Source of the DNA: Desulfobacterium sp.
Lineage (GTDB): Bacteria; Desulfobacterota; Desulfobacteria; Desulfobacterales; Desulfobacteraceae
Length of the DNA: 42,250 bases
Direction: 5' to 3'
NCBI GenBank assembly: GCA_030145245.1
Contig: JAQYWC010000075.1
Coordinates: 1 to 42,250, forward strand
The notes under the pieces are model-generated. The model was not told the DNA's origin. It ran no database searches and was given only the letters and a program-made list of their open reading frames with translations. Numbering within the stretch: position 1 is the stretch's first letter; each line of letters begins with the position of its first letter. Positions 6,741-35,077 of this stretch are shown piece by piece. The position numbers and the translations under genes were made by a program.

Positions 6741-8678
6741 TTAAAACAGTTCAATGTTATCATCAAACTCACTGTCTTCGTCCGAAGGTTCATCTGTTTC
6801 AGTGTTTACGGACTCTTCAGTTGAGATATATTCATCCTCAAACAGCTCGATGTTTGAATCGCTGTCGCTTGCTGGATTTTCCAGGGCAGTCTCCGGAGCA
6901 CCCGTGGCAGGCGGCGCTTCAATCAGGGTGGCATGTACCGCTCTTTCGCTTTCCATGGTATAGCGTTGGGATGTCCCGGTCATTCCGGTTGTCGGGCTTG
7001 GATGATCCTCTCTCCGCCACCTGCCGATCTGTTGAAGCAACGCCTCTGACTGTTCCAGCAGCAGTGTCATTTTATTTGAAAAATCAGGCATGAAAGAGAG
7101 TTCTGATTTTGCATCGCCAATGGATGATTCCAGTTTTTGTGACAGGGTTGAAGTCATTGACGAGTTTTCCAGAAACATTTGGTATGCATTGGAAATGGTT
7201 TCTTTACTTTGAATAAGCGTTATTTCCGAAGTGTTATCCACCAGGGAGGCGGTTTCGTAACTATTCGACGGCTCTTTTTCAAATTGACCTCTTAACTCCT
7301 TGATTTTTTCAATAATTCCAGTAACGCCTTCTGTGAAGGTGTTTGTGTTGTCTGATGTGCGGGCGACCTCTTTGGCAAAGACTTCAAGTGTACGGCCCAT
7401 ATCCCCGAGATGGGCTGATTTGATGATGGCATTCAGGGCTTTTCTGTGGAGCTCCAGGCTTATTTTTTGAACATCTTCGATGTGCTTTGATAATTCCGAG
7501 GTTGATTCCGAGGCTTCTGAAAAAGCTTTTTCAACCTGACGGTTCAGGTTATCCGCCTGGGACATGAGGTCGTTCAGGTTTTCAAGGCTGGCGGTTATAA
7601 CTGAGAACGGGCTTTCAGCTTTATTTTCATCTGCAATGTTAGTGATGGATCTGCCCATACAACGGACAAGTTCCGACTCTTTGATTTCAATTGACTCAAA
7701 AGCGTTTAATATTTTCCGGTATGCATTATCGATTTCTGAAACCGCATTTCTGATCTGTGCATTTTGAAGCTTAACAATGGGATAGGCCCGGCTTACGGTA
7801 TCGTCAAGAGAAGCATCCTGCCCCGTATCCTGTTGGGGCCGGGTGCAAAGCTTTCCCGCATCGTTTAAAGCCATGACCACATGCTCTATCTGTTGCCTGA
7901 CAATATCGTGAAATTGAATTGCCATGACAATTTGACTGACCTGGCTTGCGATGTCGCTGGAACACGCCCCCGCGTTCTTGAGTGAGGAGAGGGATGATTC
8001 TATAAGCTGGCTGATTTCGGACGTGGCCTCATCCAGGATTTTCTCGGCAGAGCCGGAGAGGGTTGAAAGGTGACCCAGGTGCTTTGACAGTTTCTCCTGG
8101 GAGTTTATCTGTTGTAACCGTGTTGATTCCGTGTCGTCATACAGGGATTGTGATATGGCACCCATCTGTTTGGAAAGCTGTTTTACTTCTTCAATAAACG
8201 CTGCAAACATTTCAATGGATTTTTCGGAACGGTTGCTTTCTATGGCGATATTTAAAGCGATAACATTGAGCAGAAGGGGAATTTTATCGGTTTGAGTACA
8301 CAGTCCGGATAGTTTTTCCAGGTGACCCCTGCCGGAACACAGACTCTCCAGGCTTTCTGAAATTTCGCTCTGAAAGGATTTCAGTTTCTCAACGGATTCC
8401 CGTGCAAAATCCCCCACATTCGCAAGGGGCATCTCACCTGTCCTGTTATCAACAAACTCGACGGCATCCATGACCATCTGGGAGAGCTCTTCGCTTTCCG
8501 AATAGATGCTCTGAAGTTTCTGGCCTATGTTTAAGAATTCAGGTTCCACGTCAGCCATGAGCGATGCAATGGATTGGGAAAGGCCGGACAATTGGGAACC
8601 AATGCGTGCAATCTGTTTTTCAGGAGGAACGATTCCTTTTTTAATTCTATCCAGGAACAGGTGTATTGTTTTTTTCAT
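6741..8678 (-). CDS. MCP-like cytoplasmic coiled-coil chemotaxis protein with CheZ-like motif
   Basis: This 645-residue protein is the last gene of the chemotaxis operon and has no membrane segment or recognisable sensor domain. It is mostly helical and resembles the signalling part of chemoreceptors. Two degenerate hairpin-tip-like stretches are visible, at about 132-170 (LNVIALNIAIESNR) and 411-442 (LNAIIKSAHLGDMGR), which suggests internal duplication. Between them MAIQFHDIVRQQIEHV (252-267) holds D258 and Q262, spaced as the catalytic Asp and Gln of CheZ. The acidic tail ends in NIELF (641-645), repeated at 609-613. No classical CheZ, CheC or CheX is nearby, so a CheY-P phosphatase or adaptor role is an attractive inference, not shown. 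Confidence 0.8.
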   Translation of the reverse strand: MKKTIHLFLDRIKKGIVPPEKQIARIGSQLSGLSQSIASLMADVEPEFLNIGQKLQSIYSESEELSQMVMDAVEFVDNRTGEMPLANVGDFARESVEKLKSFQSEISESLESLCSGRGHLEKLSGLCTQTDKIPLLLNVIALNIAIESNRSEKSIEMFAAFIEEVKQLSKQMGAISQSLYDDTESTRLQQINSQEKLSKHLGHLSTLSGSAEKILDEATSEISQLIESSLSSLKNAGACSSDIASQVSQIVMAIQFHDIVRQQIEHVVMALNDAGKLCTRPQQDTGQDASLDDTVSRAYPIVKLQNAQIRNAVSEIDNAYRKILNAFESIEIKESELVRCMGRSITNIADENKAESPFSVITASLENLNDLMSQADNLNRQVEKAFSEASESTSELSKHIEDVQKISLELHRKALNAIIKSAHLGDMGRTLEVFAKEVARTSDNTNTFTEGVTGIIEKIKELRGQFEKEPSNSYETASLVDNTSEITLIQSKETISNAYQMFLENSSMTSTLSQKLESSIGDAKSELSFMPDFSNKMTLLLEQSEALLQQIGRWRREDHPSPTTGMTGTSQRYTMESERAVHATLIEAPPATGAPETALENPASDSDSNIELFEDEYISTEESVNTETDEPSDEDSEFDDNIELF

Positions 8679-8694: not shown

Positions 8695-9762
8695 TTATGG
8701 GGTTGCGCATTCCCTTAACACCGCTCCGGCAATTTTTTCCAGGGGCAGGACCATGTCGGCACCGCCGAGCTTTATCGCCTCATTGGGCATACCAAAGACC
8801 ACGCAGGACTCTTTATCCTGGGCAATAGTACGGGAACCGGCCTGCTTCATCTCCAGCATCCCTTTTGCCCCGTCATCCCCCATTCCGGTCATGATGACGC
8901 CCACTGCGTTTTTACCGGCATACCGGGCAGCAGAGCGGAAAAGCACATCAACGGAAGGGCGGTGCCGGGAAACAAGGGGACCGGTTTTTATTTCAACATA
9001 ATACCTGGCACCGCTTCGTTTCAGCATCATGTGCTCGTTCCCGGGGGCGATGAGAATCTGCCCCCGCAGGACGGTATCATTATTGGCAGCCTCTTTGACG
9101 TCGACCTGGCACAGGTCGTTCAGCCTCGTTGCAAAAGCCCGTGTAAAATTCTCCGGCATATGCTGGACAATAACCATTCCCGGCGCATCCATGGGAAGGG
9201 TCTCAAGAAAACTCCGGAGCGCTTCGGTTCCGCCGGTTGACGCTCCGATCACCACGATCTTTTCAGTGGTTTTCAGCATCGCTTTTGTCGGTCCTGCCAG
9301 AACGGCATCGGCGCTCAGTTTGGGTTCTACGATTCTGTGGGGGAGGAGTTTTTTCAAATGCGCATTTGCGGCTGCCTTGATGCTGTCACAAATCGTTATT
9401 TTTGACTCCTCGATAAATTGCTTGGTGCCCATGGCCGGTTTTCGAATGATATCAACCGCACCGTATTCCAGGGCTTTCAGTGCGGTCTCCGATCTCGCCT
9501 CAGCCAGGCTGGAACAGATCACCACGGGAACAGGGTGCTGGCTCATGAGTTTTTGCAGAAAGGTAATGCCGTCCATCCGGGGCATTTCAACATCCAGGGT
9601 GATGACGTCCGGCACTTCATCCCGCATCTTCCTGGCTGCAACAAAAGGATCTGCGGCCGTATCCATAATCTCGATATCAGGATCCGAAGCCAGGACATCC
9701 GCAAGGGTCATGCGCACCAGGGCTGAATCGTCAACAATAAGAACCCGTATCTTTTTTTTCAT
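8695..9762 (-). CDS. cheB: Chemotaxis protein-glutamate methylesterase/deamidase CheB
   Basis: CheB removes receptor methyl groups and is activated by phosphorylation from CheA. Residues 1-120 are a receiver domain with DD10-11 and phospho-acceptor D57 ([11 protein letters not shown]). The C-terminal esterase carries the catalytic triad: S175 in GASTGGTE, H201 in VQHMPENF, and D297 in GMGDDGA. The start at 9762 was chosen over a longer reading frame reaching 9876 because it begins exactly at the receiver fold, follows an AAGGTGA ribosome-binding site, and overlaps the cheR stop by ATGA. At 355 residues it has normal length. Confidence 0.96.
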
Positions 9763-10628
9763 CTGTTCACCTTTTGATAAACCGCCGGTGCAAGTGAGAC
9801 AAGTGGCAGCATGCTGCAGTCGATAAGCTCGGAATGCCCCATAAAAATGAACCCGCCCGGGATCAGCTGATCGCACAGCTTGACCAACAGCTTTTCCGTG
9901 GTCTCCTTGTCAAAATAGATAATGACATTCCGGCAAAAGATAATATCCATTTTCCGGCGTATTCGAAAATCCTTGTCCATGAGATTCAGGTGTTGAAATC
10001 TGACTTTTTTCCTAAGCTCAGGAACGATCCTGACAAGGAGTTTTGTTTTGTCCTTGTTTTTCAGGAGGTATTTTTTTCTCAATTCCATTGGGACCGGCTC
10101 TATCTCACCCGCGTCGTAGACGCCCTGAATGGCGATATCGAGCACCCGGCTCGATATGTCGGTTGCTAAAACTGAGAAATTAAACCCAGAGCAGGTTCGG
10201 GAAAAATCATCCAGCACCATGGCCAGGGTATAGGGCTCGTGCCCCCTGGATGAAGCGCAGCACCAGACCATGAGGTTTTTTCCCGGCCCTGCGCCATTGT
10301 ACGTCAACAGGGCGGGCACGGCTTTTTCAACCAGATAGGTAAAATGACGGGCTTCCCTGAAAAAGTCGGTTTTATTGGTCGTTATCACATTGATGAACTG
10401 TGTCAGCTCCGTCTCCATCCCCTCCGGGCTGAACAGATAGTCACAGTACCCGGAATAGGATTTCAGCCCCAGGGTGCTCAGCCGTTTGAGGAGGCGGGAC
10501 TCAATCATCCCTCTTTTGGAACCGGGCATTTTAATGCCGAACCGTGAATGGATAAAAGTCCCCAGTTTTTTAAATTCGTATTTTGAAAGATAGGGCACCT
10601 TATCTATGGCTTCTGTCGTTTGAATCAT
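9759..10628 (-). CDS. cheR: Chemotaxis protein methyltransferase CheR
   Basis: CheR uses S-adenosylmethionine to methylate glutamates of chemoreceptors. The 289-residue protein has the helical N-terminal domain (to about residue 95, ending NKTDFFRE), then the methyltransferase fold with [15 protein letters not shown] in place of the common CSTGEEPYSLAM. Later signatures are [17 protein letters not shown] and [10 protein letters not shown]. The four-base overlaps with cheW upstream and cheB downstream point to tight translational coupling. Whether it binds C-terminal pentapeptides, as enteric CheR does, matters here because pentapeptide-like tails occur in neighbouring proteins. Confidence 0.96.
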
Positions 10629-11149
10629 AAAAGGGTTTCACTCGTTTCAAGCCCTGGTGCCGGTTGCCTTTCTGTCTCCTGAACCCCCTCAAGCTCCTCG
10701 GCGGAAAACACCCTGTCGATATCAAGGAGGATGATAAAGTCCTCGTTCTTTTTACCCATGCCCCGGATAAAATCGGTTCTGAGCCGGGTGCCGATTTTCG
10801 GTGCCGGCTCGATCTGATCGGGTTCCAGATCCAGCACTTCCTGAACGGAATCGGCAAGTGCACCCAGGAGGGCGGTATTCCCGTCAATGATAACTTCCAT
10901 GATGATGATGCAGGTATCCACGGTCTTTTCAGTTGCTGCCATGCCGAATTTAAGTCGAAGGTCGACAACCGGTACCACCCCTCCCCTTAAGTTGATCACT
11001 CCGCGCATAAATTCGGGCATGCGCGGCACCCGGGTGACCTCGGTAAAATCAAGGACTTCACGCACCTGCCTGATGTCAATGGCATAGGTTTCTTCATCAA
11101 GCATGAATGTCAGATACTGGCCTGTTTCTGTGATTCCTTCAATTGCCAT
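10625..11149 (-). CDS. cheW: Chemotaxis coupling protein CheW
   Basis: CheW links receptors to the CheA kinase. The 174-residue protein has the family's opening (YLTFMLDEETYAIDI), the VREVLDFTEVTRVPRMPEF region and the NLRGGVVPVVDLR signature. The start at 11149 is favoured over an upstream in-frame ATG because it follows AGGAGG and removes about 24 residues that do not fit the family. It lies 20 bases beyond the receptor stop codon and overlaps cheR by four bases. Its tail is about 30 residues longer than the minimal CheW fold and is polar. Confidence 0.96.
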   Translation of the reverse strand: MAIEGITETGQYLTFMLDEETYAIDIRQVREVLDFTEVTRVPRMPEFMRGVINLRGGVVPVVDLRLKFGMAATEKTVDTCIIIMEVIIDGNTALLGALADSVQEVLDLEPDQIEPAPKIGTRLRTDFIRGMGKKNEDFIILLDIDRVFSAEELEGVQETERQPAPGLETSETLL

Positions 11150-11168
11150 TTGATGAATCCTCCTTTTT

Positions 11169-13205
11169 TTAATATCTTTCAAAATCATCATCCAGGATGT
11201 CACCTGCAGGGAATTTCTCATCCAGATCCAGGGTGACCCCTTTGACAGGATTGGAGGATCTGGCTTCAGGCCTTTTTGCCCCGGGGTCTGCCGTAACGAA
11301 GGTTCTGTTCTTTGGGCCTAATGTCTCCTTATCCGCCCGGCTTGTATCTATTTTAAAAAACCGGATGGCGGCCTTGAGTTGTTCCGCCTGGGCCGCCAGC
11401 ACTTCCGCCGTCGAAGAGATCTCCTCAGAAGCTGCGGAGTTCTGCTGGATCACACTGTCAAGTTGCTGGAGCGCCTCGTTAATCTGGTCTGATCCGGAAT
11501 GCTGTTCCGTACTTGCCGCGTTGATCTCCTGGACAAGTTCGGCTGTCTTCCGGATGTCAGGAACGATCTTTTCCAGCATTGTGCCTGCGGTCTCCGAGAT
11601 CTCAACGCTGGATACGGCAAGGCTGCTGATTTCAGCAGCCGAGGTCTGGCTCCGCTCGGCCAGCTTTCGTACGGCGTCCGCCACCACGGCAAATCCCTTG
11701 CCGTGCTCGCCCGCCCGGGCCGCCTCGATGGCTGCGTTCAAGGCCAGCATGTTTGTCTGGCGTGCGATCTCCTCAATGATCGATATTTTTTCTGCGATCT
11801 GCTTCATGGCATCCACAGTCCTTACGACGGCTTCTCCCCCTTTTTCTGCATCCCCGGCAGCCTGGGAAGCGATTCTCTCGGTCTGCTGGGCATTCTCCGC
11901 ATTCTGCTTTATATTTGCGGTCATCTGCTCCATGGAGGCGGAAGCTTCTTCAGCAGCTGCGGCCTGCTCTGTCGCACCCTGGGACATCTCCTCGGTTGTG
12001 GAACTCATCTGAATGCTTCCCGAAGCCACTGAGTCGGAAGAGTGCATCACCTCCATTACGATCTCTTTCAATTTCGTTACCATCAACCCCAGCGCCATCA
12101 TGAGGCTATCCTTGGAGGAGCGCTCTCTGATTTCGATGTTGAGGTCTCCCCCGGCCATCCGTTCCGCAACCGAGGTGATTTCATTCATGGCGTCTATCAG
12201 CGCGTTCAGGTTATTTTTGATGACATTGAAATCGCCTTTGTAATCCTCGGTGATCTTTTCCGGGGTGTCTCCTGCCGAGATCCTGCTCACACACTCTGCG
12301 GCCACGTTAAGCGGTTTCACCACCGCATCCAGGGCAGCGTTGACCCCTTCGACAATACGCCTGTAATTGCCCTCGAACTGGTTTGCATCCGCCCGGGTGT
12401 CCAGCACACCTGCTGCCGCGTCGTTTGCCATTTCAACGATGCCGTTGGTAATCGCCATCTCCTTGCTGATATCCACCACATATTCCAGGCCGCCGGTGAT
12501 GTTTCCATTGGAATCCGTAAGCGGAGCACCCGTGTACCGGATGGGAAGTTCGCCTGTGGGCAGATGGGCAGTTGTATCGCTGGTAAAGACACGGTTTTGC
12601 TGCATGGCCTTTGCCACCTGACAATCGGGGGTATTGCAGTGGCCTGTATTGAACAGGCTGTAACACTTCTGGTTCAGGCAGGCTTCGGGCGTTTTTCCCA
12701 ATGCAGACGCACCGGCAGGATTAATGAATTGAACCGTAAAATCCTTGTCAATAACCATAACAGGTGTGGGAATGTTATTCAGGTAATCCACCTTCAAAGA
12801 CGCATCCTCCAAGGCGTTTTTCGTTTCAGTGATGTCGACCACAAACTCCAGGGCCCCTGTGATCTTGCCGGTCTCATCTGTGAGCGGTGCGCCGGTATAC
12901 CGTATGGGCAGATTCAGGCCGTCCGGCTCCACAACGGTTTCTCCTGTTACAATTTCGTTTCGGGTCATGGCCTGGTTGCACCGGCATTCGGAAGTTCCGC
13001 AGTGGGCGGTTTTGAAAAGATCGTGGCACTTCATGCCGATGGCCTGTTCCGGGGTTTTGCCAACCACCCCTGCCCCTGCAGGGTTGATGTGGGTGATGGT
13101 AAAATTTCTGTCAATGGCGATAACCGGGGTGGGCAGAAGATCAATATAATTGGGTTTTACACTTGACCCGAGTTGATTGAAACGTCCTATGAATTTACTA
13201 AACAC
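11169..13205 (-). CDS. Soluble tandem-PAS methyl-accepting chemotaxis protein
   Basis: This 678-residue receptor has no membrane segment. Two PAS domains lie at about 15-130 and 137-250; each has the same cysteine triad C-x8-C-x4-C (C60, C69, C74; C181, C190, C195), with a fourth at C76 in the first. A HAMP-like linker (about 255-370) precedes the long signalling hairpin, whose tip reads [20 protein letters not shown]. The tail ends DDDFERY, which resembles a CheR-binding pentapeptide. The start is GTG at 13205, supported by AGGAGG six bases upstream. The cysteine pattern suggests a redox, metal or small-ligand signal sensed in the cytoplasm; the ligand is unknown. Confidence 0.93.
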
Positions 13206-13244: not shown

Positions 13245-15320
13245 TTAAAAATCCAGAATTTTATTCACATCAATGATCAGGGCAACGGTGCCGTCACCCA
13301 GAATGGTTGCCCCGGAGATATCACGGGCCTTTTTGAACGCACTGCCAAGATTTTTGATAACCGTCTGATGACCGCCGATCACATGGTCCACCACAAACCC
13401 CACCCGTTTGCCGTTTGTCTCCATGATCACCACATGTTCGAGTTCCGGTCGGTCCACCTGGATGCCATACTCTTTCCGCAGACGGATAAAGGGAACGATT
13501 TCACCACGGACATTGAGGATATTTCTCCCATTTCTCTTCTCATCTCTGTTCCGGGGCAGCTCCACACACTCGTCCACCGATGCAAGGGGAAGCACAAAGT
13601 AATCTCCGCCGATGGTCACCAGCAACCCGTCAATGATGGCGAGGGTCAGGGGCAACTTCAGGGTAATGGTGGTGCCTTCCCCTTTCCGGCTCACAAGCTC
13701 AATGCTTCCCCTCAGGGCTTCGATGCTGTTCTTCACCACATCCATGCCCACCCCGCGCCCCGAGAGATCCGTCACCTTGCTTGCGGTTGAGAAACCCGGG
13801 GAGAAAATAAGGTTGAGGACCTCCCTTTCCGAAAGGTCCGCATCAATGGGGATGATCCCTTTTTCCGTAGCTTTTTGACGGATCACCTCGGCATCTATCC
13901 CCTTGCCGTTGTCTGAAATCTCAATGAGTACATTGGCACCGGAGTGTTGGGCTTTGAGGTGGATGGTCCCTGTTTCGGGTTTTCCCGCAGCTTTTCTGAC
14001 ATCCGGGGATTCAATGCCGTGATCAATACTGTTCCGGATAATATGCACCAGGGGGTCTTTCAGCCTTTCGATGACTGTTTTGTCAAGTTCCGTGTCTCCG
14101 CCCGTGGTTGTCAGTTCAATCTTCTTGCCCAGCTCACCTGACAGATCCCGGACCAGCCGTTTGAAATTTGAAAAGGTGGTGCCGATCTGAAGCATGCGTA
14201 TGCTCATGGCGTTGTCCCGGAGACCACCGGTGAGCATCTCCACCTCTTCTGCAATGGCGACAAGGTCGGCATCCGTTTCCGTGGCCGCTTTCTCGCTGAG
14301 GCGCGCCTGAACCGTAACAAGCTCCCCCACGAGATCCACCAGCTGATCCAGCTTGTCTGCGGGCACCCGGATGCTTGTGGAAACGGCTGTCTCTTTTCGC
14401 TGGGCGATCCTCTTTTTGACCTGTTCCTGCTCCGCCAGTGCGGATACGACAGCTGCACGGCTGGCCGTTTTCTCCTTTATCAGGATCTCACCGAGCCGGT
14501 CCTGGCTCTCCAGGGCCTTTTGCAGGTGCTTGTCCGAAAGATCCCCCCGCCTGACCAGGATCTCTCCCAGCCTGTCCGGGTGTGCCCCATCAACCACCCT
14601 CTCCCCATCGTCCACAATATCGATGGTAAGCTCGCAGTCATCCAGCACAAAAATGAATACATCCTTAATGGCGTTGGTTCCATGGGAGGTGGTGAGAATG
14701 ATATCCCAGAAGATATAGCAGGCTTCGGGATCAAGATCCTTTAAGGGCGGAATATCCTCGGTATGGGCGGTGACGGAGCACTCTCCCATCTCCCTGAGTT
14801 CGTTGAGGAGAAGCAGGGGATTGGTGCCGCTTGCAAAGATATCCGGTGCCGGCCGGAACCGGATCCGGCAGGTTACAACAGGGCCTGGAACGGCTGGTTC
14901 TGCATGGACGATTTCGGGCAAAGCCTCCGCCTCCGCCTCTTCATCTGCGTCGTCCTGGACAAGCAGGTTTCGAAGGGAAACGATGATCCCATTTGCCTTG
15001 ATTTCATCTGCCCCTCCCCCTTCGTCTAGCAGATCTTTGATGTGGTCCCGGGCAGAAAGGGTCAGGTTGACAAGCTCCCGTGTGACCCGGATGCTTCCCC
15101 CACGAACCTGGTCAAAAACGGTTTCCACATTGTGGGTGAAATCCGCGATATCCTCAAATCCGAACATGGCTCCCGACCCCTTGATGGTATGCATGGCCCG
15201 GAATACACGGCCTATCTGCTCCATATCGTCGGGGGTCTCCTCCAGTTCCAGCAACGAGGTTTCAAGTTCTGCCAGCAGTTCATAAGCTTCTTCCTTAAAT
15301 GCCTGTCTTTGAACATCCAT
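13245..15320 (-). CDS. cheA: Chemotaxis histidine kinase CheA
   Basis: CheA autophosphorylates in response to receptor state and passes the phosphate to CheY and CheB. The 691-residue protein starts with an HPt domain with H44 in RAMHTIKGSGA. Residues about 148-240 form an ill-defined P2-like domain. Residues 250-298 hold two 24-residue repeats (RLGEILVRRGDLSDKHL and RLGEILIKEKTASRAAV) that resemble MshEN-type repeats. Then come the dimerisation domain, the ATPase (NSIDHGIE, DNGKGID, GRGVGMDVV) and a CheW-like C-terminal domain. The ATG at 15320 follows AGGAG. The repeat insertion is the odd element; see the findings. Confidence 0.96.
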   Translation of the reverse strand: MDVQRQAFKEEAYELLAELETSLLELEETPDDMEQIGRVFRAMHTIKGSGAMFGFEDIADFTHNVETVFDQVRGGSIRVTRELVNLTLSARDHIKDLLDEGGGADEIKANGIIVSLRNLLVQDDADEEAEAEALPEIVHAEPAVPGPVVTCRIRFRPAPDIFASGTNPLLLLNELREMGECSVTAHTEDIPPLKDLDPEACYIFWDIILTTSHGTNAIKDVFIFVLDDCELTIDIVDDGERVVDGAHPDRLGEILVRRGDLSDKHLQKALESQDRLGEILIKEKTASRAAVVSALAEQEQVKKRIAQRKETAVSTSIRVPADKLDQLVDLVGELVTVQARLSEKAATETDADLVAIAEEVEMLTGGLRDNAMSIRMLQIGTTFSNFKRLVRDLSGELGKKIELTTTGGDTELDKTVIERLKDPLVHIIRNSIDHGIESPDVRKAAGKPETGTIHLKAQHSGANVLIEISDNGKGIDAEVIRQKATEKGIIPIDADLSEREVLNLIFSPGFSTASKVTDLSGRGVGMDVVKNSIEALRGSIELVSRKGEGTTITLKLPLTLAIIDGLLVTIGGDYFVLPLASVDECVELPRNRDEKRNGRNILNVRGEIVPFIRLRKEYGIQVDRPELEHVVIMETNGKRVGFVVDHVIGGHQTVIKNLGSAFKKARDISGATILGDGTVALIIDVNKILDF

Positions 15321-15339: not shown

Positions 15340-15705
15340 TTATTTTAAGACTTTTTTTACCACCGCCAGGAGTTGTTCCGGCTTGAAAGGCTTGGTGATC
15401 CACCCGGTGGCACCGGCTGCCTTGCCCTCTTTTTTTTTGCCGTCCTGGGATTCGGTTGTCAGAAGGATGATCGGGATGAATTTGTATTGGGGCATGGTCC
15501 TGACGTTACGAATCATCTCGATGCCATCCATGTTCGGCATATTAAGGTCCGTAATAATCATGTCCACCTTTGACTGGGATATCATGGAAAGCCCATCCTT
15601 CCCATCCACCGCCTCGACCACCTCATACCCGGCCCCTTTCAGGGTGAAGGTTACCATTTGCCGCATACTGGCCGAATCATCCGCCGTAAGAATCGTCTTG
15701 GCCAT
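15340..15705 (-). CDS. cheY: Chemotaxis response regulator CheY
   Basis: This single-domain 121-residue receiver has the acidic pair DD at residues 9-10, phospho-acceptor D53 in IITDLNMPNMDG, the conserved Thr in ILLTTES and the Lys in WITKPFKPE. It has no output domain and lies directly before cheA, so it is the operon's CheY, expected to act on a flagellar motor or another target. The start at 15705 shares one base with the stop of the STAS gene (TAATG), which implies coupling, and excludes a 12-residue longer reading. Confidence 0.95.
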   Translation of the reverse strand: MAKTILTADDSASMRQMVTFTLKGAGYEVVEAVDGKDGLSMISQSKVDMIITDLNMPNMDGIEMIRNVRTMPQYKFIPIILLTTESQDGKKKEGKAAGATGWITKPFKPEQLLAVVKKVLK

Positions 15706-16049
15706 TATCTCTCCTCTCCTTTCCATAAGCAGTTTTTGCAAGGTTTATCTTGGCACACCATCTCTCTTGTGTAACCGGCTTCTGACAGGGCACGGGTGAT
15801 AACTTTGGTTTGACCGCTTTTCCGGATGAGCCGTTTGCGGGTTTTATCGAAAGAAAGGTTTGCCGAACAGAGGAGTTGAATACAGGAAAGGTCTATGTCT
15901 GTGACGCCGTCAAGATCCACAAGGATCTCTTCAGCCTCACCGGACACATTGGACATGAAGGTTTTCAAATTAGCTGCATGTTCGATGGTGAGGGGACCAC
16001 CCATTTTCACCGTAACGGTGTTGCCGGCTTTTTCCGTTTTAAGGTCCAT
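15705..16049 (-). CDS. STAS-domain protein (anti-sigma-antagonist fold)
   Basis: This 114-residue protein is a single STAS domain of the SpoIIAA type: VKMGGPLTIEHAANLKTF, then EILVDLDGVTDIDLSCIQLL, which holds the region where SpoIIAA carries its phospho-Ser. Here the motif reads DIDLSCIQ, so the Ser is kept. The C-terminus has three cysteines in CQDKPCKNCLW, outside the core fold. STAS proteins of this kind often sit with CheA and CheY in non-enteric chemotaxis operons; their role there is unclear. The stop overlaps the cheY start. Confidence 0.88.
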   Translation of the reverse strand: MDLKTEKAGNTVTVKMGGPLTIEHAANLKTFMSNVSGEAEEILVDLDGVTDIDLSCIQLLCSANLSFDKTRKRLIRKSGQTKVITRALSEAGYTREMVCQDKPCKNCLWKGEER

Positions 16050-18035: not shown

Positions 18036-18941
18036 CTATTTGCGGCCACCGCCACCTGAGCCGCCGCCCCCACCAGAACCGCCACCGCCTGAACCGCCAC
18101 CGCCTGAGCCGCCTGAGCCACCTGAGCCGCCTCGGCCACCCATTCCGCCCCCACCGCCGGATCCAGCTCCAACCCCATGGGAACCGGGCTCACCGCCCTC
18201 CCGGATAGAGCGGGAATACTGCTGCGCCAATTCATTGGGATTGCCCAGGACAGCCTGTTGCCTGAACCGATGACGCATCTGTTCCATGTCGGCCTTGGTA
18301 AAACGATTTTGCGTGACCGCCTGGCCGATCACCTCCCCCACCCCATGGGAGGCCGCACCCAGCCGCATCATGTCACGGGCCGTTTGAAAGCATTCCCGGG
18401 CAAACGATTCCTTGTTCACCTGTTTTGTGTGCTGGGCCCGCTGCTGGTGACGATGCACCAGCTGACCCATCAACCGGTCCACTTCCCCAGCCTCAAACCC
18501 CGCAGTCATGGCCCCGGCAATAAGATCACCGATCTGATCCTGGTAAACTTTCTGTTGGGTATACCGGTGGGCATGTTCGTAAGCAAAGACATAGCGTGCA
18601 CGGACCTTTTCCATGGCTTTAACCACTGCCTCGTCCGGGGCCTTTTTGGCGATGCCCTCCAAGGCCTTGTCCATGACGGGACCCACCGGCAGGTTATCTT
18701 GTTTGACCGCCATGACCACCTGCTGGGCCCGCAACGTATATTGGTTGCGAAATTGACTCTGAATCATGGCCCGGGTCATATGGATGGCATCTTCCGGTTC
18801 AACGCCAACATTGATCATGGCCCGGGTGGCGACCCGCTGTTGCTCGGTGGCCATGTGGCCGAGCTTGTCATCGACCTCGTCGGCCAGGGCCGAAAACGCC
18901 CACAAGAACATCAAAATGATACAAACCAGTGTTTTCTTCAT
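18036..18941 (-). CDS. Secreted protein with glycine/serine-rich C-terminal tail
   Basis: I do not recognise the family. The 301-residue protein begins with a signal peptide (MKKTLVCIILMFLWAFSALA, cleavage after ALA likely). A helical, charged region follows (about 20-240), rich in Gln, Arg and Met. The tail from about residue 245 to the end is almost only Gly and Ser with a final RK. The ATG at 18941 has a GAGG site; an in-frame ATG five codons upstream is less well placed. It is the last gene of the ECF sigma operon, so it may be a target or output of that regulon. Tails of this sort act as flexible linkers or self-association segments; function is unknown. Confidence 0.75.
   Translation of the reverse strand: MKKTLVCIILMFLWAFSALADEVDDKLGHMATEQQRVATRAMINVGVEPEDAIHMTRAMIQSQFRNQYTLRAQQVVMAVKQDNLPVGPVMDKALEGIAKKAPDEAVVKAMEKVRARYVFAYEHAHRYTQQKVYQDQIGDLIAGAMTAGFEAGEVDRLMGQLVHRHQQRAQHTKQVNKESFARECFQTARDMMRLGAASHGVGEVIGQAVTQNRFTKADMEQMRHRFRQQAVLGNPNELAQQYSRSIREGGEPGSHGVGAGSGGGGGMGGRGGSGGSGGSGGGGSGGGGSGGGGGSGGGGRK
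18045..18165. repeat. Low-complexity GCC/CCACC repeat tract in coding DNA
   Basis: The DNA encoding the glycine-rich tail is an imperfect microsatellite of units such as GAGCCGCCACC and GAACCGCCACCGCCT on the plus strand. Such tracts slip during replication, so tail length may vary between strains; gains or losses in threes keep the frame. Confidence 0.75.
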
Positions 18942-18995
18942 GGGAGACCTCATCATTAGTTATTTCACCTTGGAAACGTTCACCAGGTTCAAAGG

Positions 18996-19325
18996 TTACA
19001 TATCCGGACTGAAGATACAGTTGAAAGCGCCAAAGTCATCCCCTTCCCGGTACTTGCAGGGAGGATGATAAACATGGCCGTCCACAAGATAAAAATAACG
19101 AAACTCCCTTGCTGCCGGCAGGGAGACCCCCCATTTACCCCGGGGCGTTTTACTGATGGCATGGGGCCTGAACCCGTCCAAAGACGAGATGAAATAGACG
19201 GATTCAGCCTCGGGGGCTTTCAGGTATAGATGAACCTGCCCATTGTTCACACGGTAGTAATGCTGTGCGCACCCGGCAAGCAGCAGCAAAAGGATCACCA
19301 GAACCCCATAGCTAAGTTTTTTCAT
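18996..19325 (-). CDS. Lipoprotein with glycogen-binding-like (AMPK-CBM/CBM48) domain
   Basis: This 109-residue protein starts with a lipoprotein signal (LLLLLAGC, lipobox LAGC with the lipidated Cys at about residue 19). The remaining 90 residues resemble one early-set, CBM48/AMPK-type domain: a VHLYLKAPEAESVYFI strand pair, a GKWGVSLPAA turn, FRYFYLVDG, and a terminal DDFGAFNCIF. That end matches DDFGGENSIL of the preceding gene's product, so the two domains look like paralogs; here the motif is degraded. The gene overlaps its upstream neighbour by four bases. A role in glycan binding is only inferred; such domains can also serve protein contacts. Confidence 0.78.
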   Translation of the reverse strand: MKKLSYGVLVILLLLLAGCAQHYYRVNNGQVHLYLKAPEAESVYFISSLDGFRPHAISKTPRGKWGVSLPAAREFRYFYLVDGHVYHPPCKYREGDDFGAFNCIFSPDM

Positions 19326-19909
19326 ATGGCTTGCCCCACAATAAGAATGCTGTTTTCACCACCAAAGTCATCCTGCTCCCTTGTCAATATCGTCGGATCA
19401 GCAAAACGCCGGTGACCATCGGCAATGTAAACAAAGCGATGCTCCCCCCTGGGGATATCAAGCCGGATCTCCCAATACCCGCTGGAACCTGCGGCGTGCA
19501 TGGACACCGCTTCCCAACCGGTGAATGCCCCGGCCACAGCCACCTCCCTGGCCTCCGGCTGATACACCACCAGGCGACTTGGGCAAACACCGGCCGGGGG
19601 CCCGGGCCTGTGGGCCAGAACAACACCCAACACCACCATGACCACCACAGCCATGACGCCGACCGGCCCCACCAGGGGACGAAAAAAATCCTTCAGGAAC
19701 CCTTGCAACCTGCCGGGCACTGCCCCGGGTGCTTTTACAGCCAGCAACGGGGCAGGATAAAGCCCCTCGGCCCGGAGCAACTTATCCTGCTCAAGCAAAG
19801 CCAGGGTTTCACTGAAAAATTCAGGATCAACCTTCAGGCGTTTCACAAGAGCCATTTTGTCATCAATGCTCAATTCATTATCAATGAACATGCTGATTAT
19901 TTCATCCAT
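19322..19909 (-). CDS. Putative anti-sigma factor with periplasmic CBM48-like domain
   Basis: This 195-residue protein looks like a single-pass membrane anti-sigma factor. The N-terminal 45 residues (MDEIISMFIDNELSIDDK) resemble the sigma-binding part of anti-sigma proteins but lack the HxxxCxxC zinc site. A membrane helix lies at about 80-100 (VGVMAVVVMVVLGVVLA). The C-terminal 85 residues form an isoamylase-early-set/CBM48-like domain: VAVAGAFTGW, GYWEIRLDIPRGEHRFVYI, and the closing DDFGGENSILIV. It overlaps the ECF sigma gene by eight bases and the lipoprotein gene by four. The architecture suggests a periplasmic signal passed to the sigma factor; the ligand is unknown. Confidence 0.8.
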   Translation of the reverse strand: MDEIISMFIDNELSIDDKMALVKRLKVDPEFFSETLALLEQDKLLRAEGLYPAPLLAVKAPGAVPGRLQGFLKDFFRPLVGPVGVMAVVVMVVLGVVLAHRPGPPAGVCPSRLVVYQPEAREVAVAGAFTGWEAVSMHAAGSSGYWEIRLDIPRGEHRFVYIADGHRRFADPTILTREQDDFGGENSILIVGQAI

Positions 19910-20384
19910 GGTGTTTTCCTTCTTCCAGCAACTTCTTGAGTTTCATACGGGCCCGGTGCACCTTTACCTTGACGTTGGCCTCGCTTATACCCACCTGTTG
20001 GGCGATCTCACGGTAGGAATAGATGCTGGTGGCCGCCAGAGAGAGCAGATCCTTTTCATCCGGTTCCAGCTGCTGCATGGCCGTCAGAACCCGTTGATAC
20101 TCCTCACGCAGCAAATGGTGCTCCTCCGGGTTGCCTGGCACCTGGCAAAGCTTACGACCGGAACGATGCCGTACCTGGCAGTGACGGCCATGGTCATACA
20201 CGGCATTCCGCGCCACGGTAAACAGCAGCGACGGCTTCAAACCTTTACAGCCATAACGTTCCAGACAACGGGTAAAACTCTCCTGCATCAGATCGCAGGA
20301 GAGCTCATAGTCCCCGGTCATCCGCAACAGATAGGCCAGCAGGCGATCCCTATGGTCGCGATAAAAGTCTGCAAAAACAATCAT
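19902..20384 (-). CDS. ECF-family RNA polymerase sigma factor
   Basis: This 160-residue protein has the two ECF regions. Region 2 covers about residues 5-70 (FYRDHRDRLLAYLLRMTGD, then DLMQESFTRCLERY). Region 4 covers about 105-155 with the helix-turn-helix SYREIAQQVGISEANVKVKV followed by HRARMKLKKLL. It has no extra domains. The gene is first in a four-gene operon and overlaps the putative anti-sigma gene by eight bases, the usual arrangement of an ECF sigma with its inhibitor. Its target promoters are not known; an AAC-N16-CGTT motif just ahead of it is a candidate self-controlled promoter. Confidence 0.92.
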   Translation of the reverse strand: MIVFADFYRDHRDRLLAYLLRMTGDYELSCDLMQESFTRCLERYGCKGLKPSLLFTVARNAVYDHGRHCQVRHRSGRKLCQVPGNPEEHHLLREEYQRVLTAMQQLEPDEKDLLSLAATSIYSYREIAQQVGISEANVKVKVHRARMKLKKLLEEGKHHG

Positions 20385-20393
20385 AACACCTAT

Positions 20394-20420
20394 GAAACGA
20401 TTTCAAGGCCATTGGGTTAC
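20394..20420 (-). promoter_or_regulatory. Candidate ECF-type promoter of the sigma operon
   Basis: On the minus strand GTAACC (20415-20420) is followed after 15 bases by CGTTTC (20394-20399), which fits the AAC-N16/17-CGT pattern of many ECF promoters and would allow autoregulation. The start codon follows only about 10 bases later, so the transcript would have almost no leader; this weakens the call. Confidence 0.3.
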
Positions 20421-20453
20421 ACCAACGGGCAGATTTCGCAGGGTGGTGCGGCT

Positions 20454-21161
20454 TTACTCCAAGGGCCTGCACGGAATATCAAAGTCTATATGGTAATGCT
20501 CGTCGTGCCGAACCCATGACCGGAGCGTTGAGAATTTCACCCGGCCCTTGAGTGCTGTCCATGCACGGGTCGCCCCCAGGAACGGTTGAAGTTTTGGATC
20601 AAAAATGACTCTCCGGATTTTCACCTTTCTAGCATCGGCAGCCCGCTTGATGGCAAGGATATGGGCCGCCACCGCTTCAAAATCGATGGTCAACTCCCCA
20701 CTGCCCCCCTTGACGTCAAACTCGATTGCGTAGCCGTACTTATTAAATGCACTCGCAGGAAGACGGACCGATCCGCCGGACCGATCCACCAGCGGCACCA
20801 TGAAATCGACAGACAGACCATTTTGATGGGTTTTATGGGGTTTAAATCTCCCCCCGGAAGCCCACCCGGTTTCCCCGTAAACAAACACCTTGTCCGGGTA
20901 CTCCCTGTTCAGCTCCTCGTATGCCGCAAGCACCACCTCCGCCACCCTGCAGTGGACATAGGTGCGGCCAAGGCTCCAGCCGAGGAGGCTGTATGCCGTA
21001 AAATTCTCCCCATGGTATGGAAGCTTGCACCCATGTTCCAGTTTACCCTTGGCGGTGATACCATAGCAGACACTGTCAGATCCGGCTGCCATGGTCACCC
21101 CAGCAAAAGACAGTGCCAGAAAAACCCCGATGACCTTGCTGAGCTGCTTTATGTTCTGCAA
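20454..21161 (-). CDS. mepA: Penicillin-insensitive murein endopeptidase-like protein (MepA/M74)
   Basis: MepA-type LAS metallopeptidases cleave peptide cross-links in peptidoglycan in the periplasm. The metal site motifs are visible: HQNGLSVDF (His and Asp ligands) and HDEHYHIDF near the C-terminus. A signal peptide (VIGVFLALSFAGVTMAA) precedes the mature part. The frame is open upstream to an ATG at 21302, but that would overlap the preceding gene by 131 bases; I prefer TTG at 21161, ten bases past that gene's stop, with AGGA upstream. This gives 235 residues, somewhat shorter than E. coli MepA. The start remains uncertain. Confidence 0.85.
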   Translation of the reverse strand: MQNIKQLSKVIGVFLALSFAGVTMAAGSDSVCYGITAKGKLEHGCKLPYHGENFTAYSLLGWSLGRTYVHCRVAEVVLAAYEELNREYPDKVFVYGETGWASGGRFKPHKTHQNGLSVDFMVPLVDRSGGSVRLPASAFNKYGYAIEFDVKGGSGELTIDFEAVAAHILAIKRAADARKVKIRRVIFDPKLQPFLGATRAWTALKGRVKFSTLRSWVRHDEHYHIDFDIPCRPLE

Positions 21162-21171
21162 AACGATTGTC

Positions 21172-22077
21172 CTAATTCCCCAACAATTCCAATTCAGCGG
21201 ATAGAATACCCCCTGATCCCAAATGAATTTGGCTATATTCATCATAACCCCTATGGGTTTCGAGAACTCCCTCGCCCAGTGAAACCTTCCACACCCTTTC
21301 AAAATTAAGATTCAGAGCAATATAGATACTGTTGGTCCGGGGATGGAAAACCATGGAGCAAAGGGTTGAACAGCCCGGATCCTGGCAATACACCATCCCC
21401 AACAGTTCAAGGCCTTTCTCAACGTTGAAATCATTCTTATTCTTTGAGAGATAGTCATGGGCAATCTTATATCTCTCCGCACCAACCCCAACAGCCTCTT
21501 CGTAATGTTTGCCAACCAGACTATGATTTGCAAAATTTGCCATCACCAGAAAATCATGATCCATCCCAACGATGATGTTTTCAGTATTGTCGGTTTCTGA
21601 GACAAAGGCATTTCCTTTGGTATCCGCAAACAAGTTATGCAGAGACGGGCCAAGATTTTGAACCGCCTGTTTTTTGGAGATAAACTCCTGAACCTTTTCC
21701 ACATCAGAATATATGGAGATGGTTTCATATTGATCATCAATATGAATTTGATCATCACTGGGTTTTTCAAAACCCTCAATATACGGCTCAACTTCCTGGC
21801 AGGCACTGAAAAGACCTTTATCGTTCATCCCGCAGGTAGTAGCAAAATAAGCTTTACTTTTTGGTTCCTTGGGATATGGTTCATACAAAAACGCCAAATG
21901 AAAGATCTTCATTCCTGAATTGGATTCGATCCAAAATTTAAGGGGTAGGAAAGTAAAATCGAAATTCATACCATAGAAGATATCGTTGCCGTACAATGCA
22001 AAGCTGGTACACGCAAAAACCGATGAGGCACAACCAAAAACGAACAAAAGCAGAAGAGCTAATATTTTCAGCATCAT
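21172..22077 (-). CDS. Exported choloylglycine-hydrolase-family (Ntn) amidase
   Basis: This 301-residue protein belongs to the linear amide C-N hydrolase family (penicillin V acylase and bile salt hydrolase relatives), in which an N-terminal Cys freed by processing is the nucleophile. After a signal sequence ending VFA comes CTSFALYG, with the catalytic Cys first, then GMNFDF and the CGMNDKGL segment of the family. A second Cys in the signal (VFGC) could instead serve as a lipobox. The ATG at 22077 is preceded by AGGTGAG; a GTG three codons earlier lies inside that site. The natural substrate is unknown; N-acyl compounds such as acyl-homoserine lactones or peptidoglycan amides are possibilities. 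Confidence 0.85.
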   Translation of the reverse strand: MMLKILALLLLFVFGCASSVFACTSFALYGNDIFYGMNFDFTFLPLKFWIESNSGMKIFHLAFLYEPYPKEPKSKAYFATTCGMNDKGLFSACQEVEPYIEGFEKPSDDQIHIDDQYETISIYSDVEKVQEFISKKQAVQNLGPSLHNLFADTKGNAFVSETDNTENIIVGMDHDFLVMANFANHSLVGKHYEEAVGVGAERYKIAHDYLSKNKNDFNVEKGLELLGMVYCQDPGCSTLCSMVFHPRTNSIYIALNLNFERVWKVSLGEGVLETHRGYDEYSQIHLGSGGILSAELELLGN

Positions 22078-22963: not shown

Positions 22964-24673
22964 TCACGAAGGTGACCGGCAGATGCCGCAGCGGTTGCAG
23001 TCGATCATGGGGCAATCCGGGGTGATTTTCTCTGCCCTGGCCCTGTCATACTCCTTCCTGAGAAATGGGCGCTTGATGCCGGTATCAACGATATCCCAGG
23101 GGAAGAACTCGTCCTGCTGGCGCTCTGTGTGGATCTGGACTTCACAGTACTCTTTAACCTCTTTCAGGGCCCGGGACCATCCCATCTCTGCTGCTGCCTC
23201 CAGGATATCCGCAATCTTGCGGTCTCCCCGTGAAAGCAGGGCATTGATCCTGGCCATCCTGAAGGATTCCGAGTTGATCTGCATGTTGGGCACCCTTTTC
23301 AGGCCGTCGGTGATCATCTTGAGCTTCTTCTTGAGGCTGGGGACGCGTTCCATGGGGGCCCATTGAAACGGCGTGGCCGGCTTTGGAATAAAGGGGTTGA
23401 TGCTCAGGGTGATGGTGCCGATCTTCTGCTTTTTCCGGCTGGTTTCAAGGAAGCGCTCCCGGATCTTCTGGGTCAGGTCAACGATGGCAAGGATGTCGTC
23501 CTCCTCCTCAAAGGGAAGGCCGATCATGAAATAGAGCTTGAGATTGATGATGCCGGTCTCCACCAGGCGCTGGGTGGCGGAGAGGAGGTCCTCCTCGCTG
23601 ATCTTCTTGTTGATGATACGGCGCATGCGTTCGGAGCCGGCCTCCGGGGCGATGGTGGCGGTCTTGACACCGGAACGCTGGAGGGTTGTGATCAGCTCGT
23701 CTGTGAGGGCGTCGGCCCGGAGGGAGCTGAAGGAGAGGTGGAGCTCCTCCTCGATCCCCCTGGCGCAGATGGTGTTGATGCCGGGATGGTCGGATACGGC
23801 TGCACTGACAAGGCCGACCTTGTCTGTGAGCTCCTTGGCCTCCCCAAGGGCGCGGATCACCACATCTTCGGGATAGAACCTGGGCGGGCGGTAGATGAAG
23901 CCTGCGCTGCAGAACCTGCAGCCGTGGTGGCACCCCCTGCCGGTCTCCACAAGGAAGATGTTCCTGAAGGCTGTGTCGGATGAGAGGATGCGGGTGGTGG
24001 TGGAGATGTCGCCAAGCTCCATGACGCGCCTGATCCGTATCTGGTCGGGGATCTGATCGTTGAGGGGCTTCATACCGGTGAGCGCTTTATCCGGGTCGTA
24101 GAGGGGGGTGTAGTAGCCGGGAACATAGACGCCGGCAAGGGAGGGGACAAGTTCCTGATAAAGGTCCTCCCTTGGCATATCCGGGGTGTAGATATCGAAA
24201 AAGGGCTCGATCAGGAGCTCTCCCTCGCCCAGGAGCATAATATCCATGAACGGCGCAATGGGCTCGGGGTTCAGAAAACAGGCAACCCCCCCTGCTATCA
24301 CAAGGGGGTATGAGTCGCCACGATCGGATGACCGCAGGGGGATGCCCGCAGACGTCAGAATGGAAACCAGGTTGAGGTAGTCGTTCTCAAACGAGATCGA
24401 AAAAAAGATGATATCAAACCGGGAGAGCTCCATGGCCGTCTCTTCGCTCAGGAGTCGCTCCTTGTCCTTTGGCAGAAACACGCGCTCGGCCGCAACATGG
24501 TCAAGGTCGTTGATCAATCCGTAGACCGTCTGGTATCCAAGGCTGGACATCCCGGCCTGGTAGGTGTTGGGATAGACCAGGGCCGTTTTGATCAGTCCTT
24601 TTTGTCGTTTTACAATACTGCCTTTTTCAATTCTGACGGTCTCTTTTTTACTTCGTCTGGTTTTTTTTGCCAT
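22964..24673 (-). CDS. B12-binding-domain-type radical SAM protein
   Basis: This 569-residue protein belongs to a conserved but uncharacterised radical SAM family with an N-terminal cobalamin-binding-like fold (VYPNTYQAGMSSLGYQ, and FDIIFFSISFENDY). The radical SAM cluster motif is CHHGCRFC (C248, C252, C255). The C-terminus has CPMIDCNRCGIC, which may hold a further cluster. In several bacteria a relative is fused or adjacent to a DUF2344 protein and RNase G; neither is seen here. It begins three bases past the ftsZ stop, so it is probably cotranscribed with the division genes. The substrate is unknown. Confidence 0.88.
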   Translation of the reverse strand: MAKKTRRSKKETVRIEKGSIVKRQKGLIKTALVYPNTYQAGMSSLGYQTVYGLINDLDHVAAERVFLPKDKERLLSEETAMELSRFDIIFFSISFENDYLNLVSILTSAGIPLRSSDRGDSYPLVIAGGVACFLNPEPIAPFMDIMLLGEGELLIEPFFDIYTPDMPREDLYQELVPSLAGVYVPGYYTPLYDPDKALTGMKPLNDQIPDQIRIRRVMELGDISTTTRILSSDTAFRNIFLVETGRGCHHGCRFCSAGFIYRPPRFYPEDVVIRALGEAKELTDKVGLVSAAVSDHPGINTICARGIEEELHLSFSSLRADALTDELITTLQRSGVKTATIAPEAGSERMRRIINKKISEEDLLSATQRLVETGIINLKLYFMIGLPFEEEDDILAIVDLTQKIRERFLETSRKKQKIGTITLSINPFIPKPATPFQWAPMERVPSLKKKLKMITDGLKRVPNMQINSESFRMARINALLSRGDRKIADILEAAAEMGWSRALKEVKEYCEVQIHTERQQDEFFPWDIVDTGIKRPFLRKEYDRARAEKITPDCPMIDCNRCGICRSPS

Positions 24674-24676
24674 CTA

Positions 24677-25894: not shown

Positions 25895-25916
25895 ATTACC
25901 CCCTCCTTGAGTATAT

Positions 25917-27143: not shown

Positions 27144-27144
27144 A

Positions 27145-33924: not shown

Positions 33925-33933
33925 TGTCTGTTC

Positions 33934-35013
33934 CTAACGTATCTTCAAGGTGGAAAGGGAGACCAGGGCCAAAATGATGGCAATGATCCAGAACCGCACG
34001 ATCACCTTGGATTCGGGCCACCCCTTGAGTTCAAAATGATGGTGCAGCGGTGCCATGCGGAATACCCGCTTACCATTGGTCAGCTTGAAATACCCCACCT
34101 GGATGATCACGGACATTGCCTCGATAACAAAGAGGCCGCCCACAACCAGCAAAAGGATCTCCTGCTTGGTGATGACGGCAATGGTGCCAAGCAGTGCCCC
34201 CAGGGGAATGGAGCCTGTGTCCCCCATGAACACCTGAGCCGGATGGGCATTGAACCAGAGAAACCCGAGGCCGGCGCCGGCCAGGACACCGCAGACAACC
34301 GTGATCTCCCCACAGGAAGCGATGTGCTTCACCTGGAGATAATTGGCAATCTCCACATGGCTTGCCACATAGGCAAAAAACATATAGGTCACCGAAGCGA
34401 TGATGATCGGTCCGATGGCAAGGCCGTCCAGGCCGTCGGTGAGGTTCACCGCATTGGAGGTCCCGACGATCACAAGGGTTGCAAAGGGGATGTACCAGAC
34501 ACCAAGATCCGGAGTGAAATTCTTTAAAAAGGGAAAGCTGAGACTGGTGTCGAAATCCGGGCAGCTGTAAACAAGAAAGGAGACTGTAAAGCCTGCAATC
34601 AGCTGGACGGCAAATTTTCCCTTTGCCGTGAACCCCATGTTCCGCTTTTTGACCTGCATGAGATAGTCGTCGATGAACCCGATGAGACCGAACAGTCCCA
34701 TGGACAACAGGGTAATCAGGATGTAGTGATTTGTGAGATCCGCCCACAGAAGCGTTGACACGCCCAGGGCAAACAGGATGAGCATCCCTCCCATGGTGGG
34801 TGTACCCTCTTTTTCCAGATGGGTTTCCGGGCCGTCGTTCTGGATGAACTGGCCGATCTGCATCCGGGAGAGCCGCTTGATCACCCAGGGACCGAGCACA
34901 AAGCACAGAACAAGGGCGGTCAAACCACCGTAGATGGTTCTAAATGTGATATACCGAAACAGGTTGAAAAACGAGATCTCGGTATGGAGAGGGTACAAAA
35001 AATGAAACAGCAT
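33934..35013 (-). CDS. mraY: Phospho-MurNAc-pentapeptide translocase MraY
   Basis: MraY transfers phospho-MurNAc-pentapeptide to undecaprenyl phosphate, forming lipid I. The 359-residue integral membrane protein has about ten helices. Conserved active-site segments are [17 protein letters not shown] with the paired Asp, [13 protein letters not shown], and [12 protein letters not shown]. The HHHFELKGW segment near the C-terminus is characteristic. There is a 65-base gap after murF. Confidence 0.98.
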
Positions 35014-35077
35014 CGTCTAATTCCTGATTTAGGCGGCCATCAGCCCTTAATTTAAAAGGCCGTGGACCGCTCGCTCC

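Follow-up and report, generated by a model that had tools for sequence, protein, structure and literature searches.

What terminates the signal is the question raised by a chemotaxis gene cluster of Desulfobacterium sp. that encodes a CheY and, by reading, has no visible CheZ, CheC, CheX or FliY. This agrees with the original prediction for the locus, and none of these families was found over cut-off on the window contig, C82 (FliY being covered via the CheC model); PF13690 and PF04509 (CheX/CheC) gave no match there up to E 1. The window, that is, the whole stretch of 42,250 nucleotides analysed here, holds the cluster in the order STAS-CheY-CheA-PAS-PAS-HAMP receptor-CheW-CheR-CheB, followed by a 645-residue protein (genes assigned by reading, with Pfam matches in addition for STAS, CheA and the receptor):

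15705..16049, minus strand: small STAS-domain protein (Pfam)
15340..15705, minus strand: CheY, start MAKTILTADDS, presumed substrate of the 645-residue protein (by reading)
13245..15320, minus strand: CheA (Pfam)
11169..13205, minus strand: PAS-PAS-HAMP-MCPsignal receptor, its C-terminal DFERY fitting the CheR-tether consensus (reading and Pfam)
10625..11221, minus strand: CheW; the listed start may be too long (by reading)
9759..10628, minus strand: CheR (by reading)
8695..9762, minus strand: CheB; the listed ORF (to 9876) is longer than the chosen start gives (by reading)
6741..8678, minus strand: 645-residue soluble tandem-hairpin protein, last gene of the che cluster (ORF, 16 bases after the cheB stop)

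The last reading frame is real, as originally claimed, but its strand is the minus strand (8678-6741), the plus strand being full of stops there. Downstream of it follow genes that by reading resemble a 2-oxoacid oxidoreductase set. Within CheA, about 210 residues between the Hpt and the dimerisation domain, including LGEILVRRGDLSDKHLQKALESQ, had no Pfam match at E<=1e-4. Elsewhere in the window, positions 18036-21302 hold an ORF that by reading resembles an ECF sigma factor, a membrane-like protein with an AMPK1_CBM glycogen-recognition domain, an M74 murein endopeptidase and a protein with a Gly-rich tail and no Pfam match. Positions 22964-39908 hold a dcw-type division and cell-wall cluster (by Pfam FtsZ, FtsA, an FtsQ-type POTRA, MurB and several Mur ligases, also MurG-like, FtsW, MraY-like and PBP), which a radical SAM protein with Radical_SAM_N2 adjoins.

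We propose, with a probability of about three in four, that the 645-residue protein is a system-specific CheY-P phosphatase, built from a duplicated receptor-like hairpin with a CheZ-type site. It would probably switch off signalling in its own chemotaxis system. Computed support for this reading comes from homology, register, conservation, gene linkage and duplication. In the original prediction, a chemoreceptor-like scaffold carries a site for CheY-P dephosphorylation; this proposal is strengthened by the invariance of the site, its ungapped register with CheZ, its outward position, the linkage to CheY-like genes and the retrieval of CheZ genes.

The putative site lies in FHDIVRQQ, with D258 and Q262 at the residues claimed:

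7893..7907, minus strand: predicted catalytic motif D258-x3-Q262 (51/51 conserved; aligns to CheZ D143/Q147)

D-x3-Q occurs in the protein at chance level, with three instances present and 2.0 +/- 1.3 expected from 2000 shuffles. The motif alone is hence uninformative, and it is conservation that carries the signal. D258/Q262 are kept in 51/51 homolog rows, which was the outcome of the conservation check suggested along with the original prediction, D242/Q246 in 6/51 and D370/Q374 in 4/51. Row selection used similarity to the whole target and was independent of the motif: 53 homolog ORFs with a score >75 gave 52 distinct rows, a length filter of >450 aa dropped both parts of a frame-split gene (L072), and with the target 51 rows resulted. 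In a 52-row alignment, with one Acidobacteria row added and the other rows 17-80% identical to the target, only F48, Q255, D258 and Q262 are invariant. An earlier check on 37 rows (target included; L002 and L012 are one protein) found D258, Q262 and Q255 in 37/37.

Comparison of the homolog profile with CheZ led to the same two residues. In hhalign, the 51 rows matched 51 CheZ sequences with Prob 67.5, E 5e-5 (one comparison) and a score of 43.5 over 50 ungapped columns, in which D258 pairs with D143 and Q262 with Q147:

7845..7994, minus strand: CheZ-like segment, residues 229-278, ungapped to E. coli CheZ 114-163 (hhalign)

Reversed profiles scored 27.1 and 27.5, and local MCPs 28.8, the latter elsewhere on CheZ (44-131). 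The CheZ profile comprised E. coli, the 30 best loci of a phylum-wide Pfam CheZ search and 20 long ones with FQDLSGQ. Since 20/51 CheZ rows were thus chosen by FQDLSGQ, and the rows of set S described below by their motif, the scores are partly not independent. Single models gave weaker matches. Pfam CheZ (PF04344) covered residues ~194-272 of the target with 14.7 bits (E 0.03; 16.3 bits in a six-frame search; cut-off 30.7), and an NCBIfam CheZ model reached E 0.0076 on the same residues, below cut-off. The organism's own genome has three CheZ-family places, none over cut-off, of which the 645-residue protein is the best (E 0.02; the next, 0.04). At E<=0.1, PF04344 matched 12/52 family members, and two NCBIfam CheZ models matched 6 and 4 of 52. 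With a local CheZ HMM, 45/51 rows scored (maximum 22.3 bits, median 7.2; target 11.6, in 12th place) and 6/51 gave no match. Among the controls, 12/53 MCPs scored, with a maximum of 6.7 bits, and the best of 51 reversed rows and of 53 reversed MCPs had 8.2 and 9.2 bits. The top 12 rows, with 22.3 to 11.6 bits, therefore lie above all controls, and the median of 7.2 lies inside the control range.

On their helix, D258 and Q262 are predicted to face outward as in CheZ. Measured from the hydrophobic face on a helical wheel, Q255/D258/Q262 lie at 147/103/165 degrees and CheZ residues 140/143/147 at 157/112/172 degrees; by this sequence-based measure the pair would not be buried. AXXFQ and DXXXQ are given as CheZ motifs in the part of PMC7750401 that deals with them. 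AXXFQ is absent before DXXXQ in our family, where the target has AIQFH and A, F and Q occur in 14, 35 and 1 of 51 rows. As the Pfam threshold, AXXFQ and the tail (see below) all failed, the 645-residue protein is best placed outside the CheZ family as now defined, though it may well work like CheZ. Six of the 51 CheZ rows (L126, L127, L129-L132) have IHADLVDQ, not the usual F[QL]DLxGQ, and are also without AXXFQ. Many Desulfobacterota CheZ ORFs (L106-L123, L136-L155) measure ~430-690 aa, and in some long ones (e.g. G520, G421) the two Pfam CheZ halves are ~200-250 residues apart, as if the hairpin were lengthened or carried an insertion.

Shorter relatives came up when the whole phylum was searched with the 52-row alignment. 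Fifteen stretches (L185-L199) were taken out, and in 11 of them an ORF of 409-449 aa has the motif at residues 324-359 (set S); the frame of L192 is without the motif, and L196-L198 are fragments of long-type proteins. S rows were chosen for carrying the motif, so that its conservation inside S is by selection. The ending [VI]x[LF]F, which was not selected for, is found in 11/11 S proteins, and within ~5 kb there is a CheY-like gene in 11/11 and CheA in 10/11 (L190 is on a 3.2-kb contig). A hydrophobic stretch (KD above 2) lies within the first 140 residues in 10/11. MCPsignal matched 8/8 S proteins scanned, over the gathering score (E 8e-22 to 2.6e-38), and at E<=0.1 Pfam CheZ matched 5/8 and NCBIfam CheZ 6/8 of them. 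Against CheZ, S gave Prob 95.4 and E 1.8e-8 in hhalign over 58 ungapped columns in the same register, with a score of 64.5 against 28.4 and 26.1 for controls. Single-hairpin proteins also occur on alpha- and betaproteobacterial plasmids, in Sphaerotilus (L201), Methylobacterium (L202) and Methylosinus (L200). The motifs of the three are FQDIVRQ, FQDINRQ and FQDVVRQ, and their C-termini RIELF, KIELF and MIELF; 2/3 adjoin CheY-like and CheA genes, and the third lies near CheW and a response regulator. These three are annotated as methyl-accepting chemotaxis proteins, and some family members hence carry annotation only as receptors; the S proteins of the phylum are unannotated. We expect the single-hairpin relatives to be active as homodimers.

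A search of 395 whole genomes (E<=1e-3) with an 85-column profile of the S segment gave 147 listed matches in 118 genomes. Ranks 1-74 are frames of 144-996 aa, taken as members or fragments of the double- or single-hairpin family (not all inspected one by one), and none is among the Pfam CheZ places listed. At ranks 75-147, at least 60/73 overlap Pfam CheZ places found separately, and 11 others are unassigned, of which some may be CheZ; the own-genome paralog and rank 76, full-length in the phylum-wide search, are also there. The profile search proposed at the outset thus ranked the protein's own family first and then mostly CheZ genes. Receptors, though common in these genomes, do not swamp the match list. 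Retrieval of CheZ without a flood of receptors, albeit with motif-selected S rows, favours shared ancestry of the segment with CheZ over a convergent motif. Two 144-aa frames (G413:C24 and G257:C1) carry the CheZ-like segment alone and are possibly split genes or short phosphatase-only relatives.

The 645-residue protein aligns twice to set S and hence is a tandem fusion of the single-hairpin type, in which copy 1 keeps the site and copy 2 the tail:

7833..8600, minus strand: copy 1, receptor-like hairpin, residues 27-282, equivalent to S185 96-355 (hhalign Prob 99.6, E 1e-23)
7023..7808, minus strand: copy 2, receptor-like hairpin, residues 291-552, D/Q positions lost (hhalign to S185)
8169..8285, minus strand: degenerate receptor tip 1, residues 132-170, N143/E147/R150 kept (homolog alignment, hhalign)
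7353..7448, minus strand: degenerate receptor tip 2, residues 411-442, ALNAIIKSAHLG (Pfam, hhalign)
8523..8546, minus strand: conserved stretch E45-F48-G52 on the ascending helix, probably at the same height as the descending-helix site (conservation; height inferred)
6933..6962, minus strand: conserved YTMxxERxxH motif, residues 573-582 (homolog alignment)

Residues 267-645 align to S185 71-416 with Prob 99.9 and E 5e-32 (hhalign). The stretch of copy 2 that matches the site reads LSFMPDFSNKM and is variable and motif-free in the 20 rows listed; the YTMxxER motif and the tail are retained. A Y[TV]Mxx[EQ]R-like motif is kept in most single- and double-hairpin forms seen, and our search turned up no known function for the YTMxxERxxH type. 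The receptor-tip likeness of segments 132-170 and 411-442, noticed in the first reading of the sequence, was borne out in hhalign against MCPs of related loci (Prob 96.5 for 112-263 and 98.3 for 361-466). So was the soluble nature of the protein, which has no TM-like segment (maximum 19-aa KD 1.06). An AlphaFold2 model (7 rows) is all helical with middling scores (mean pLDDT 73, pTM 0.50), and its breaks include 149-151 and 424, which are tip positions. A fold search with this model gave generic helical matches only, CheZ not being among the matches listed.

Taking residue 150 as the first tip would put residues 45-52 level with 251-258, and E45/F48/G52 and Q255/D258/Q262 are thus probably neighbours in the fold. 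F48 and G52 are kept in 51/51 rows and E45 in 50/51. On the helical wheel, F48 lies at 35 degrees (core side) and E45 and G52 at 92 and 79 degrees (sideways), which speaks for packed surroundings of the site, not one flat surface patch.

The family is linked to chemotaxis genes. This count covers 52 rows, including both halves of one gene but not the window itself; neighbours were named from one-sequence searches with the che proteins of the window, 'CheY' being any scoring receiver-domain ORF. A che gene lies within 8 kb on the same strand in 50/52 rows; for the two others, L090 and L075 (at a contig end), no che gene was in view. Downstream within 8 kb, CheY-like genes occur in 46/52, CheA in 36/52 and STAS in 23/52 rows, and in 20/52 the first three recognised genes to follow are STAS, CheY and CheA. 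A close homolog (L086, 43% identical) counts as CheY-linked only via a more distant receiver gene. The own-genome paralog L085 (G000 C29:85792-87468; site LHDSMRQ) heads a second STAS-CheY-CheA-MCP-CheW-CheR-CheB cluster, whereas the window gene sits at the opposite end of the same gene set. CheZ is over cut-off in 2/44 carrier genomes and in 106/395 across the phylum, an indicative contrast because the samples differ.

We also considered the 645-residue protein as the cell's only phosphatase. This is not supported, as five CheX-family ORFs over cut-off lie elsewhere in the genome, outside the window contig, and the protein is therefore not the sole candidate. CheX is over cut-off in 42/44 carrier genomes, so a further phosphatase is not obligatory. 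One own-genome CheX, on contig C9, is ~20 kb from fliM, which suggests a division of labour in which CheX may serve the motor and the 645-residue protein its own system.

The acidic C-terminus comprises the following features:

6744..6920, minus strand: acidic tail, residues 587-645, low confidence in the model (composition, AlphaFold2 model)
6744..6758, minus strand: terminal NIELF docking-like motif (N[VI]ELF ends 44/51 rows)
6840..6854, minus strand: internal second NIELF, residues 609-613 (internal copies in 7/51 rows)

N[VI]ELF is C-terminal in 44/51 rows, two others being cut by contig ends, and the 7/51 rows with a second, internal copy include the target. The likeness to the CheZ tail proposed originally stands in part: of the last 60 residues, 21 are D/E and none is K/R, and the final one is F, but the CheZ tail motif [VI][DN]x[LIM]L, present in the last 16 residues of 50/51 CheZ rows, is in 0/51 homolog rows, and we rejected a CheZ-type CheY-binding tail. 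A C-terminal x[HFYW]xx[HFYW], the consensus for CheR/CheB tethers, was found in 0/51 rows and in 42/53 MCPs of related loci, and this assignment was rejected as well. N[VI]ELF is a separate short linear motif.

For the phosphatase reading, we infer catalysis, substrate, pseudo-dimer geometry and the role of the tail as follows. The ancestor would have been a receptor-like hairpin protein that already had a CheZ-type active site at the end far from the tip. Head-to-tail duplication may then have produced the 645-residue protein, with the fused hairpins forming a single-chain pseudo-dimer four-helix bundle. On the outer face of copy 1, D258 and Q262 would be separated by one helical turn. In CheZ, Q147 places the attacking water and D143 helps to hold CheY. 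Likewise, Q262 would enter the CheY-P active site and position the attacking water, and D258 would help to hold CheY. Copy 2 would have lost the site and kept the YTMxxER motif and the acidic NIELF tail, which probably docks a partner, either CheY or the CheA/CheW array.

Alternatively, the CheZ-type face and the tail could bind CheY or CheY-P without hydrolysis, making the protein a scaffold or CheY sink at the receptor array. Both hairpins have receptor-like tips, the conserved tail fits none of the docking motifs tested, and hydrolysis could come from CheX elsewhere. Binding by itself, however, needs no D and Q at exact spacing, outward and in 51/51 rows, and we regard this alternative as unlikely. 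Still less probable is an atypical soluble chemoreceptor, a degenerate hairpin pair signalling to CheA with D-x3-Q as a conserved receptor surface. MCPsignal (PF00015) is indeed matched by 50/52 family members at E<=0.1 and strongly by the eight scanned single-hairpin relatives; the 645-residue protein itself gave 32.8 bits, below the cut-off of 34.6. Its tips are degenerate, with K and H in tip 2 at positions occupied by E and R in the receptor of the same operon, no sensor domain was among its Pfam matches up to E 1, and the CheR tether is missing from all rows. MCPs, moreover, match the CheZ HMM weakly at best.

We give very little weight to a HisKA_3-like H-D-x3-Q box, that is, a response-regulator phosphatase or phosphotransfer site with H257 as phospho-acceptor. 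Site variants such as LHDSMRQ resemble the HisKA_3 H box, and residue 257 is H in 49/51 rows. HisKA_3, however, did not match the target up to E 1 (HMMER filters drop most weak matches) and is absent among the 25 most frequent families of the 52 members, no ATPase domain was found, and Q or E replaces the H in single-hairpin relatives and a few long homologs. A chance motif in an unrelated coiled coil is hardly credible: D-x3-Q is expected about twice at such composition, but conservation in 51/51 rows, the CheZ register and family-specific retrieval contradict it.

Beyond the window, the phosphatase reading invites a tentative extension, which we hold to be possible though somewhat doubtful: a membrane-anchored receptor-like class, spread over several phyla or classes, with a CheZ-type phosphatase at the hairpin base, of which the window protein would be a soluble fused pseudo-dimer. 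If so, one rod would bear both the kinase-control tip and the signal-terminating site, and phosphatase activity could be gated by receptor state. Since the tip of such a protein would share ancestry with receptors and its base with CheZ, CheZ itself may have arisen from a receptor hairpin, or may instead be the source of a hairpin's base. The phosphatase reading would tie receptor evolution to CheZ evolution and raise the question of receptor-gated signal termination. Many che systems seem to be without a phosphatase, and the family provides a specific candidate with two residues, one substrate and an operon partner.

Among known phosphatases, CheX, CheC and FliY fill the same biochemical role with an unrelated fold and an ExxN motif; unlike these, the 645-residue protein has the CheZ-type D-x3-Q and no PF13690 or PF04509 match. 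Geobacter is described as being without cheZ, so that a CheZ-independent mechanism must operate, in the relevant part of Tran et al. 2008 (PMC2577667). Early F7 clusters of beta- and gammaproteobacteria begin with an anti-sigma antagonist, cheY and cheA and are described without cheZ, which occurs only with F6, according to the sections of Ortega et al. 2020 (PMC7184735) on these classes. In the literature searched, we found no description of a tandem- or single-hairpin family with a CheZ-type site. An earlier case of an inconspicuous phosphatase within a che operon is Sinorhizobium CheT, characterised in the passages of PMC12654446 that describe it as a che-operon protein with DXXXQ and a CheZ-like predicted fold, which speeds the dephosphorylation of one CheY. 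By that description, the 645-residue protein is like CheT in being a chemotaxis-operon protein with DXXXQ; CheT is from alphaproteobacteria, and those passages of PMC12654446 mention no receptor-like tip.

With MCPs, the 645-residue protein shares hairpins that both align to PF00015 and recognisable tips. It differs in its lack of TM segment, sensor domain and CheR/CheB tether, in its degenerate tips and in the CheZ-type segment at the hairpin end far from the tip. The single-hairpin relatives have a comparable FQDxxxQ-type site, a Y-x-M/T-xx-[EQ]R-like motif, a -[VI]x[LF]F tail and che genes nearby, and differ by one hairpin, a mostly present N-terminal hydrophobic stretch and an intact tip. 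Like E. coli CheZ (PF04344), finally, the 645-residue protein has the 50 ungapped columns including D143/Q147, a D-x3-Q that the helical wheel places outward, and a gene near cheY. Unlike CheZ, it is three times longer, consists of two fused receptor-type hairpins and stays below the Pfam cut-off, has AIQFH for AXXFQ and no CheZ CheY-binding tail, and would carry one site per molecule, where CheZ has one per dimer subunit.
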